NCBI GenBank assembly: GCA_026993355.1
Contig: JALWTX010000008.1
Location: forward strand, 124,001 to 188,000
Length of the DNA: 64,000 nucleotides
Direction: 5' to 3'
Origin: Flavobacteriales bacterium
GTDB lineage: Bacteria > Bacteroidota > Bacteroidia > Flavobacteriales > Flavobacteriaceae
A program made the position numbers and the translations under genes. The notes beneath the pieces are model-generated. The model did not search any database. It saw only the letters and a list, made by a program, of their open reading frames with translations, and was not told the origin of the DNA. Shown here in pieces: positions 18,807 through 22,007 of the stretch (its first letter is position 1; each line of letters opens with the position of its first letter).

Positions 18807-20078
18807 ATGTTACAAATTTCGCGTTTAAGAAACGATAAAGATGCTATTATTGAAGCCCTGAAAAAGCGTAATATTGAGGCGTCGGATTTAATAAACAAAG
18901 CCATCGAATTAGATGATTTAAGAAAAAAAACACAGCGGGAAAATGACGAACTTTTAGCAGAAATGAATAAATTGTCAAAAGAAATCGGACAATTATATAA
19001 AATGGGGGAACGGGAAAAGGCGGAGCTTTTAAAAGCTAAAACAGCTGAATTGAAAGAAAAGATAAAACAATTGTCACAAGACCTGGAACAGTATAAAATG
19101 GATTTGCAAGAGGTTCTTTATCAACTGCCCAATGTCCCAAATAAATTAGTTCCTTTTGGTAAAGATGAAGCTGACAATGAAGTAGTTTTTGAGTATGGCG
19201 ATGTATTACATATGCCTGATGATGCTTTGCCACATTGGGAGTTGGCTAAAAAATATGATATTATAGATTTTGATTTAGGAAATAAAATAACCGGCGCTGG
19301 TTTTCCTGTATATAAAGGAAAAGGGGCAAAATTTCAACGTGCTTTAATCAATTATTTTCTCGATAAAAATGAAGAAGCCGGCTACCGCGAAATGCAAGTG
19401 CCTCATTTGATTAATGAAGCCTCGGGGTATGGGACGGGGCAATTGCCTGACAAAGAAGGACAAATGTATTTTGTAGAACGTGATAATTTATATCTCATCC
19501 CCACAGCTGAAGTCCCCGTAACCAATTTATATCGCGATCAAATGCTATACGAAAATGATTTACCCATTAAAAATACGGCTTATACACCTTGTTTCCGGCG
19601 GGAAGCGGGTTCATATGGGGCTCATGTTCGGGGTTTAAACCGTTTGCACCAATTTGATAAGGTAGAAATTGTCCGTATTGAACATCCTGAGCGTTCTTAT
19701 CAAGCCTTAGATGAAATGGTAGAACATGTGAAACAAATCTTAATCGAATTAGGCTTGCCATTCCGTATTGTGCGTCTTTGCGGTGGTGATTTAGGTTTTA
19801 CCTCTGCCTTAACTTATGATTTTGAAGTATGGTCTGCTGCGCAAAAACGTTGGTTAGAGGTTAGTTCGGTTTCCAATTTTGAAGATTTCCAAGCTAACCG
19901 TTTGAAATTGCGATTTAAAAATAAAGAAGGTAAAAAACAATTAGTGCATACTTTAAATGGCAGTTCTTTGGCATTACCTCGTGTGGTAGCCGCCTTATTG
20001 GAAAATAATCAAACGGAACAAGGTACAAAAGTACCTGAAGTTTTACGTTCTTTTTTAGGCTTTGATTATATAAATTAG
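18807..20078 (+). CDS. serS: Seryl-tRNA synthetase
   Basis: N-terminal coiled coil; LYLIPTAEVPVTNLYRDQML, TPCFRREAGSYGAHVRGLNRLHQFDKVE, LNGSSLALPRVVAALLENNQ. Confidence 0.97.
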   Translation: MLQISRLRNDKDAIIEALKKRNIEASDLINKAIELDDLRKKTQRENDELLAEMNKLSKEIGQLYKMGEREKAELLKAKTAELKEKIKQLSQDLEQYKMDLQEVLYQLPNVPNKLVPFGKDEADNEVVFEYGDVLHMPDDALPHWELAKKYDIIDFDLGNKITGAGFPVYKGKGAKFQRALINYFLDKNEEAGYREMQVPHLINEASGYGTGQLPDKEGQMYFVERDNLYLIPTAEVPVTNLYRDQMLYENDLPIKNTAYTPCFRREAGSYGAHVRGLNRLHQFDKVEIVRIEHPERSYQALDEMVEHVKQILIELGLPFRIVRLCGGDLGFTSALTYDFEVWSAAQKRWLEVSSVSNFEDFQANRLKLRFKNKEGKKQLVHTLNGSSLALPRVVAALLENNQTEQGTKVPEVLRSFLGFDYIN

Positions 20079-20119: not shown

Positions 20120-20127
20120 TATATTTG
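20120..20127 (+). promoter_or_regulatory. TATATTTG promoter core of the aromatic leader transcript
   Basis: TAnnTTTG 18 bp upstream of the leader-peptide ATG. Confidence 0.5.
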
Positions 20128-20144
20128 TATCATAAATCAAGCAG

Positions 20145-20222
20145 ATGAACACATTGAATGCATATTTTAGTTTCTTTTTTTACTTTTATTTTTACGTAAA
20201 AGAAGGGACTTTGTATGCTTAA
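20145..20222 (+). CDS. Phe/Tyr-rich attenuation leader peptide MNTLNAYFSFFFYFYFYVKEGTLYA
   Basis: ATG..TAA, 25 codons: 6 Phe and 5 Tyr, with 10 of residues 7-17 aromatic. Lies upstream of a terminator and the Phe/Tyr operon; not in the supplied ORF track. Confidence 0.85.
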   Translation: MNTLNAYFSFFFYFYFYVKEGTLYA

Positions 20223-20253
20223 ATGACATCAATATTTTGCAATAGAAAGTCCC
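20205..20253 (+). promoter_or_regulatory. Candidate antiterminator stem (attenuator regions 2:3)
   Basis: GGGACTTT (20205-20212) pairs perfectly with AAAGTCCC (20246-20253). Region 2 overlaps the last codons of the leader ORF. Confidence 0.75.
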
Positions 20254-20273
20254 GATTTTTCGGGGCTTTTTTT
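20246..20273 (+). terminator. Attenuator terminator (regions 3:4)
   Basis: AAAGTCCCGA / TCGGGGCTTT stem (one G-U), small T loop, then a seven-T tract (20267-20273). Confidence 0.85.
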
Positions 20274-20275
20274 AT

Positions 20276-20309
20276 ACCTGTTAGGTTTCCAAAACCTGAT
20301 AGGTCTGAA
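20276..20309 (+). repeat. REP-like palindromic repeat, copy 1
   Basis: acctgttaggtttccaaaacctgataggtctgaa; immediately 5' of the RAYT gene. Confidence 0.8.
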
Positions 20310-20333
20310 TAAAAATAAATTAATAATAAACCA

Positions 20334-20927
20334 ATGAAAACAATACCATTTGAACCTTCAAAATATTATCATTTTTTTAATAGGGGTAATAATAAAGAAA
20401 ATATCTTTATTGAAGATGAAAACTATTACTATTTTTTAAGATTAGTTTCTAAATACTTACTACCTATAATTGATTTATATTCATATTGTTTATTACCTAA
20501 TCATTTTCATTTGGTTTTTAGAATAAAGGAAATACAAGATTTACCTATTGATTATCAAACAAATAAAAAAGAATTATATAGAGCTTTTTCTAATTTATTC
20601 AATGCATATACAAAAGCATTTAACAAACGGTATCAACGATCAGGAAATTTATTTAAAAAACATCCTGTTAAAAATTTAATTGATACAGAACAGTATTTAA
20701 GAAATGTGATTTTATATGTGAATACAAATCCTGATCATCATAATATTGAAAATTCATTAGATTATAAATTTTCATCGTATAACAAATTGATTTCAAGTGA
20801 TTCGTTATTATTGAATCAAGAAATTATTACATATTTATTTGATGACATTGAGAATTTTAAATTTGCTATACATTCTAAAAAAATGAATATAGAAATTCTA
20901 AAAGACATTTCGGAAATTGATGAATAA
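20334..20927 (+). mobile_element. REP-associated tyrosine transposase (RAYT, Y1/HUH family)
   Basis: YYHFFNRGNNKENIFIEDENYYYFLR, LLPNHFHLVFRI (HUH motif), RYQRSGNLFKKHPVKNLIDTEQYLRNVILYVNTNPDHH; flanked by REP-like palindromes. Confidence 0.9.
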
Positions 20928-20956
20928 CAGAATTAAGCAGGACAAGGATAAACTAA

Positions 20957-20991
20957 ACCTGTTAGGTTTCAAAAAACCTGATAGGTCTGAA
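20957..20991 (+). repeat. REP-like palindromic repeat, copy 2
   Basis: acctgttaggtttcaaaaaacctgataggtctgaa. Confidence 0.8.
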
Positions 20992-21030
20992 CAATAAAAC
21001 ATAAACAACTAATAATAAAGTAACTAAATA

Positions 21031-21070
21031 GACCTAGCAGGTCTACAAGACCTACCAGGTCTGCAAGGAT
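21031..21070 (+). repeat. Tandem REP-like half palindromes
   Basis: gacctagcaggtctacaagacctaccaggtctgcaaggat. Confidence 0.65.
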
Positions 21071-21077
21071 AAATAAG

Positions 21078-21111
21078 ACCTGTTAGGTTTCCAAAACCTG
21101 ATAGGTCTGAA
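21078..21111 (+). repeat. REP-like palindromic repeat, copy 3 (identical to copy 1)
   Basis: acctgttaggtttccaaaacctgataggtctgaa. Confidence 0.8.
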
Positions 21112-21149
21112 TAAAAAACATAAACAATTAATAATCAAATAATTAAATA

Positions 21150-21168
21150 GACCTATCAGGTCATGACC
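21150..21168 (+). repeat. Partial REP-like repeat
   Basis: gacctatcaggtcatgacc just upstream of pheA. Confidence 0.55.
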
Positions 21169-21185
21169 AATAAAACTACAAAAAC

Positions 21186-22007
21186 ATGAATATAGGCATA
21201 CAAGGCACCGTCGGTTCATTTCATTACGAAGTCGCTAAAAATTTGTTTGGCGAAAACAACCATTTTGTAGAATGTATGGATTTTAATGACATTCCCGTAT
21301 TGCTCAAACAAGGCAAAATAGACAAGGGCGTTATGGCAGTCGAAAATACGATTGCCGGCGCCATTCTGCCCAACTATGGTTTGATTGACGAGTATGATTT
21401 GCATATTGCCGGCGAATATTATTTGCCCATTCATCATCATTTGTTGGCATTACCCGGACAAACAGTTGCCGACATCAAAGAAGTATGGAGTCATCCTATG
21501 GCATTGTTGCAGTGTCGCAAATATTTGCGCAGTCACCCGCATATCAAGTTGGTCGAAGAAAAAGATACGGCCGAAATGGCAAAAATCATCCAACAAAAAC
21601 AACTCAAAGGCATTGCTGCCATTGCGGGCTATGAAGCCGCCAAAATTTATGATTTGGAGATTTTAGCTGAGAGCATTCAAACCAATCAAATCAATGCGAC
21701 GCGTTTTGTGGTATTGGATTTAAAAAACGGCGATACCGTGCAAGATTTTAACAAAGCTTCCATACGTTTTAAACTCTCGCACCAACCCGGCAGTTTGGTC
21801 AATGTACTGCAAATATTTAATCGGTATAATTTGAATATGAGTAAAATACAAAGCGTTCCGATTATTGATAAACCTTGGGAATACGCCTTTTTTGTCGATT
21901 TGTTGATTGACAACCTCGCAGATTACCAAATGGCAATGTATCAAGTAGCCCGCCAAGTTATCGAACTGAAAATTTTAGGAGAATACACCTCAATGAAAAA
22001 ACAATAA
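21186..22007 (+). CDS. pheA: Prephenate dehydratase with ACT-like domain
   Basis: IGIQGTVGSFHYEVAKNLFG...GVMAVENTIAGAILPNYGLID...IKEVWSHPMALLQCRKYL...NATRFVVL...SIRFKLSHQPGSLVNVLQIFNRYNLNMSKIQSVPI. Confidence 0.94.
   Translation: MNIGIQGTVGSFHYEVAKNLFGENNHFVECMDFNDIPVLLKQGKIDKGVMAVENTIAGAILPNYGLIDEYDLHIAGEYYLPIHHHLLALPGQTVADIKEVWSHPMALLQCRKYLRSHPHIKLVEEKDTAEMAKIIQQKQLKGIAAIAGYEAAKIYDLEILAESIQTNQINATRFVVLDLKNGDTVQDFNKASIRFKLSHQPGSLVNVLQIFNRYNLNMSKIQSVPIIDKPWEYAFFVDLLIDNLADYQMAMYQVARQVIELKILGEYTSMKKQ

Follow-up and report, generated by a model that had tools for sequence, protein, structure and literature searches.

When a transposase-derived gene sits between an amino-acid attenuator and the operon behind it, does the gene fall under the attenuator, or does it cut the operon off? 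We met this question in a 64,000-nucleotide stretch of Flavobacteriales DNA (the window), in the interval between a pheA leader and pheA itself. A preliminary description had placed there a gene for a REP-associated tyrosine transposase (RAYT) and several REP-like palindromes. Its coordinates for the end of the attenuator, the co-oriented RAYT gene and the start of pheA hold, and the palindromic copies are present as four hairpin cores and a half-site (Table 1).

Table 1. Features of the leader, the insert and pheA (window positions)
Feature	Positions	Strand	Remarks
Leader promoter −7 element TATATTTG	20120–20127	+	Exact motif, Bacteroidota TAnnTTTG type
Leader peptide MNTLNAYFSFFFYFYFYVKEGTLYA (then stop)	20145–20222	+	11/25 residues Phe or Tyr
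Antiterminator strand GGGACTTT	20205–20212	+	Overlaps leader ORF end; pairs with 20246–20253
Attenuator terminator, stem-loop plus T-run (20267–20273)	20244–20273	+	−16.8 kcal/mol, z −5.4
Hairpin A1, core ACCTGTTAGGT-N7-ACCTGATAGGT	20276–20304	+	40 bp identical to copy at 21078
RAYT, 197 aa, intact	20334–20927	+	HuH motif N56-H57-F58-H59; candidate catalytic Tyr Y128 (YVNTNP)
Weak candidate internal promoter TTTG-N16-TAAATTTG, inside RAYT ORF	20838–20865	+	Sole exact TAnnTTTG in 20274–21186; short spacer
Hairpin A2	20957–20986	+	Direct repeat of A1; flanks RAYT
Hairpin B2	21032–21060	−	Inverted relative to A2 (REPIN-like pair A2–B2); G.T versus A.C mismatches
Hairpin A3	21078–21106	+	Shared with G001, including flanks
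Truncated half-site of B hairpin, ACCTATCAGGT on + strand	21151–21161	−	Also in G001
pheA (prephenate dehydratase), first gene of aromatic operon	21186–22007	+	

The region 20145–20273 is a predicted Phe/Tyr leader-peptide transcription attenuator, with putative relief by Phe/Tyr starvation. It combines a Phe/Tyr-rich leader ORF, mutually exclusive antiterminator and terminator structures, and conservation ahead of the cognate operon, whose further genes, up to 25140, encode an aminotransferase, prephenate dehydrogenase and a DAHP synthase–chorismate mutase. The antiterminator pairs GGGACUUU (20205–20212) with AAAGUCCC (20246–20253) in a fold of −16.8 kcal/mol, and the leader 1:2 stem folds at −13.4 kcal/mol. 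The −7 element occurs at the matching position in G001, G004, G003, G008 and G011 and in some other genera, and the terminator is conserved in relatives. A homologous leader and terminator precede 27 of the 29 pheA loci examined, and on this comparison the attenuator is an ancestral feature of the pheA locus. The gene upstream of it varies among close relatives while the attenuator and pheA stay together: the neighbor is serS here (18807–20078) and a lipoprotein-like gene, a toxin-antitoxin-like pair or another gene in L009, L010, L013, L014 and L015.

An Rfam search of the leader returned no match; elsewhere in the window, a DUF805b RNA (RF02914, 37404–37438) scores above the Rfam gathering threshold (E = 3.7e-9). 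A conserved structured 5′ element that precedes pheA in Flavobacteriaceae and belongs to no Rfam family has been described from F. psychrophilum transcripts (PMC9723704), and our leader resembles it as a conserved structured element upstream of pheA. The difference lies in spacing. The terminator-to-pheA distance is 13–81 nt in all 19 other-genus loci with an attenuator, whereas the gap here is exceptional at ~0.9 kb, occupied by the RAYT gene and repeats.

By its predicted fold, the protein encoded in the gap is a RAYT. Single-sequence Pfam and PDB searches failed to identify it, and its matches to curated families fall below their cut-offs (NCBIfam NF047646, E = 6e-9, 35.9 bits against 80; Pfam Y1_Tnp, PF01797, only E = 0.03, 14.9 bits against 23), while 29 of the 37 relatives reach E ≤ 0.01 against Y1_Tnp. 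It took profile and structure searches to settle the identity. A profile of 37 homologues matches PDB 4er8, a TnpA-REP bound to a REP (E = 2.9e-5), and 4er8_A is also the top structural match (E = 8e-8, TM 0.56/0.65) of an AlphaFold model with pLDDT 93.5. The HuH residues N56-H57-F58-H59, Y128 and N132 are invariant across the 37 homologues, in keeping with the HuH plus single-Tyr Y-x3-NP signature of RAYTs, and Y128 aligns with the Tyr of YIYINP in 4er8. The gene has one match in the genome, its own, and is flanked on both sides by palindromic repeats with further copies around the genome, as is characteristic of RAYTs; cleavage or mobilization of these cognate repeats in single-stranded form would be its expected activity. 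Among class 2 TnpA-Y1 proteins (RAYT/TnpA-REP), with which it shares the HuH and Tyr motifs, the 4er8 fold, the single genomic copy and a Bacteroidota host, the nearest description is the mostly Bacteroidetes subclass 2.6 (PMC6006769), a comparison made by printed motifs only, which partly differ: NHFH and YVNTNP here, NH[LIV]H and YIH[QN]NP in the survey. The protein also carries Phe in place of the usual Trp.

The hairpins around the gene form a repeat family of their own. Each is a nested palindrome, ACCTNNNAGGT-N7-ACCTNNNAGGT, and those in the gap fold far better than shuffled sequences (z −3.9 to −7.3). Where type A carries G.T mismatches, the same strand of type B has A.C, which makes B an inverted A. 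This corrects the preliminary description, which had taken its first and third copies to be identical over 34 bp: the identical pair is 20276/21078, over 40 bp, and the third copy, at 21032, is of the different, oppositely oriented type. The genome-wide count proposed in that description gave 42 occurrences of ACCTGNNAGGT in the 2.2-Mb genome versus 6 for a reversed-pattern control, and 8 of the paired form versus none in controls. Neighboring oriented hairpins alternate between A and B in 22 of 27 cases, copies within one array not being independent, and A–B pairs are spaced 23–53 bp apart.

These hairpins resemble REPINs and BIMEs (PMC3116915), being REP-type doublets in inverted orientation, scattered between genes and in some places in tandem arrays. 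They differ in their nested palindromes and in lacking the canonical REP guide, as the flanks of the copies listed showed no GTAG or GTGG within 0–2 nt on the 5′ side of the foot. The same hairpin shape occurs at 2.37/kb within 300 bp of Bacteroidota RAYTs versus 0.04/kb beyond 1 kb (109 RAYT loci). Around subclass 2.6 genes of Bacteroidetes, the superfamily survey notes "atypical secondary structures" (PMC6006769), and our hairpins are probably these structures; a literature search for the repeat sequences found nothing. In L040 (1–1410, ending in RPSRFINPTRSQIE and a stop) and L077, the C-terminal codons of an alpha-amylase-like gene come from a hairpin repeat, so the repeats also overlap gene ends. 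The idea that repeat number tracks RAYT presence was rejected, as G001 gives 33 strand-hits of the paired repeat with no detectable RAYT, although fragmented assemblies may hide a RAYT.

Comparison within the genus, several of whose genomes are fragmented assemblies, bears on how the gap came to be filled. Between the terminator and pheA, G009, G011 and G005 are free of these hairpins. Together with the ancestral attenuator and the short gap in other genera, these sites support the earlier proposal of an insertion between leader and pheA, and the RAYT at pheA reads as a real lineage-specific insertion. G003 and G008 retain remnants of one hairpin pair without RAYT, G001 and G004 carry hairpins without RAYT, and G000 (the genome of the window) and G006 have both; the G006 leader was not found in its assembly, leaving the attenuator–RAYT junction unseen there. 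Repeats of more than one kind have settled at this spot, for in G011 (L015) the same interval holds an inverted repeat of unrelated sequence (GAGATTTCTCGCTATCGCTTGAAATGACA-like). The pheA tree groups ((G000,G001)97,(G004,G006)99) with G009, G011 and G005 outside, its deeper nodes being weakly supported (68–72).

The two genomes without RAYT in this group carry what look like deletion scars. In G004, the terminator side of A1 is joined to the A2–B2 spacer found in G006, suggesting A1 × A2 recombination; G001 has retained A1 and, as in G000, the segment from A3 to pheA, the pattern that a deletion starting at A1 and stopping just short of A3 would leave. The simplest history is hairpins first, a single RAYT gain before the four-species split and two losses. 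The RAYT thus appears to be no fresh insertion, as it would predate the four species. We considered whether RAYT instead entered twice, in G000 and in G006, attracted by a pre-existing hairpin array. The hairpins at pheA do seem older than RAYT, given the hairpin-only remnants in G003 and G008, and a related RAYT follows an alpha-amylase gene in G004 and G009. Two arrivals are nevertheless highly improbable in our estimation, since the right flanks of RAYT (A2-spacer-B2) in G000 and G006 align and RAYT dS resembles pheA dS (0.60 and 0.72 between these two genomes), values consistent with vertical descent under constraint.

The RAYT lineage behind the alpha-amylase gene is a second one, 76% identical over 90 residues to that at pheA and present in G009 as a contig-end fragment; the amylase locus of G000 has a hairpin pair only. 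A recent move of RAYT from there was rejected on the 76% identity and a dS of ~1.16, which places the divergence of the two lineages before the species split. Ancestral residence at pheA across genera was likewise rejected: the same RAYT at this locus in distant genera, which the preliminary description had named as evidence against insertion, was looked for, and no pheA lies near any of the 109 RAYT loci.

Does the insert leave pheA connected to its attenuator? A search of 20274–21300 found no intrinsic terminator on the + strand, and the stretch between RAYT and pheA holds no promoter of the Bacteroidota type. With no such terminator and only a weak promoter candidate in between, RAYT and pheA would be co-transcribed by read-through of the attenuator. 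Co-transcription, which the preliminary description had offered as one of two outcomes, is thus the most likely arrangement suggested by these motif searches, and it would place RAYT expression under attenuator control. The weak candidate bears on the other outcome, in which the insert isolates pheA: a promoter in the RAYT ORF, or an unrecognized one, would drive pheA, leaving the attenuator to control little, or RAYT only. An exact TAnnTTTG, TAAATTTG (20858–20865), with an upstream TTTG (20838–20841), does lie ~310 nt before pheA and recurs in the G006 sequence. Its spacer of 16 is short, however, and purifying selection acts on the coding sequence that contains it. Chance alone would yield a TAnnTTTG about every 900 bases; the window has 75 on its + strand, and nine TTTG+TAnnTTTG combinations. 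Moreover, the sister species without RAYT lack the internal motif and have kept the attenuator, and the leader and terminator remain intact in the strain with the insert. We regard isolation of pheA as improbable and return to co-transcription.

Whether transcription behind the attenuator matters to the cell is a separate question. On one reading, which we hold to be unlikely, RAYT is by now a gene of the aromatic operon under its attenuator, and Phe/Tyr starvation would raise its expression and hence the processing or mobility of its repeats. Somewhat unlikely, too, is that RAYT is a neutral passenger, transcribed with the operon while its activity and regulation are irrelevant to the cell, until its flanking repeats delete it. 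Such a fate would suit the absence of RAYT from both sister species and the many genus members that keep repeats without a detectable RAYT. Yet between G000 and G006 the gene shows dN 0.053 and dS 0.60 over 153 codons (dN/dS 0.087). The RAYT is thus, on codon comparison, under purifying selection since that split (~0.09), which argues for a function of the protein, possibly for the element's own benefit.

The preliminary description had called the arrangement an unusual regulatory capture. Capture is possible; "unusual" is weakened by the company that RAYTs of this family keep, nearly always between co-directional genes with gaps of ~80–90 bp. An upstream gene could be called for 106 homologues and points the same way as the RAYT in 100 of them, versus 170 co-directional pairs among 206 controls (p = 0.003, in a test that ignores phylogeny); once nine hemF-linked loci are set aside the count is 92 of 97, and the median gap to the upstream gene is 90 bp. 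The downstream side shows no difference from controls (86/100, p = 0.51). Given this near-constant co-directional, short-gap setting, read-through expression looks normal for RAYTs of this family, and the insert is a known kind of element in an uncommon position, the pheA leader. Two Pedobacter terminators looked like further cases of a RAYT behind an amino-acid attenuator but were rejected: they follow a YebC-like gene and are ordinary.

Some RAYTs are joined to a host gene outright. In-frame RAYT–HemF (coproporphyrinogen III oxidase) fusions occur in 11 Flavobacteriaceae genera as ORFs of 490–549 aa (L062, L063, L065, L069, L070, L072, L173, L174, L175, L176 and L177), and their linker peptide is encoded by a REP palindrome (e.g., DLQGFENLAG). 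At least six of them (L065, L070, L072, L173, L174 and L175) lack a separate ATG for HemF at the junction, which makes the fusion look obligatory. RAYT lies directly upstream of hemF, unfused, in L059, L061 and L071, and a literature search for RAYT–HemF fusions found no paper. A 1025-aa ORF in L178 combines a RAYT-like domain with a Pif1-like-looking helicase, and its repeated peptide HTVTQSHGVS looks like translated repeat DNA.

The following account of the locus is, taken as a whole, probably correct. An ancestral Phe/Tyr transcription attenuator would drive the pheA operon, and in one lineage of the genus hairpin repeats would have landed just past its T-run. A RAYT gene flanked by repeats would later have taken the same spot, in the direction of the operon and with no obvious promoter of its own. 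RAYT and pheA would then be transcribed only when the attenuator is read through, as would happen upon ribosome stalling at Phe/Tyr codons. Being direct repeats on either side of RAYT, A1 and A2 may destabilize the locus, and recombination between repeats probably deleted RAYT at least twice, sparing the hairpins and the attenuator.

Together, these findings describe a naturally replicated case, two species with and two sisters without a transposase-derived gene behind an amino-acid-sensing switch. The locus makes testable both the host regulation of operon-embedded RAYTs and the loss of RAYTs by recombination via REP-type repeats. More broadly, the repeats of a RAYT family that is widespread in Bacteroidota are nested palindromes without the canonical GTAG guide. 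If RAYT does respond to the attenuator, it would be one case of Bacteroidota RAYTs living in host operons and borrowing their regulation, with the RAYT–HemF fusions as the extreme.
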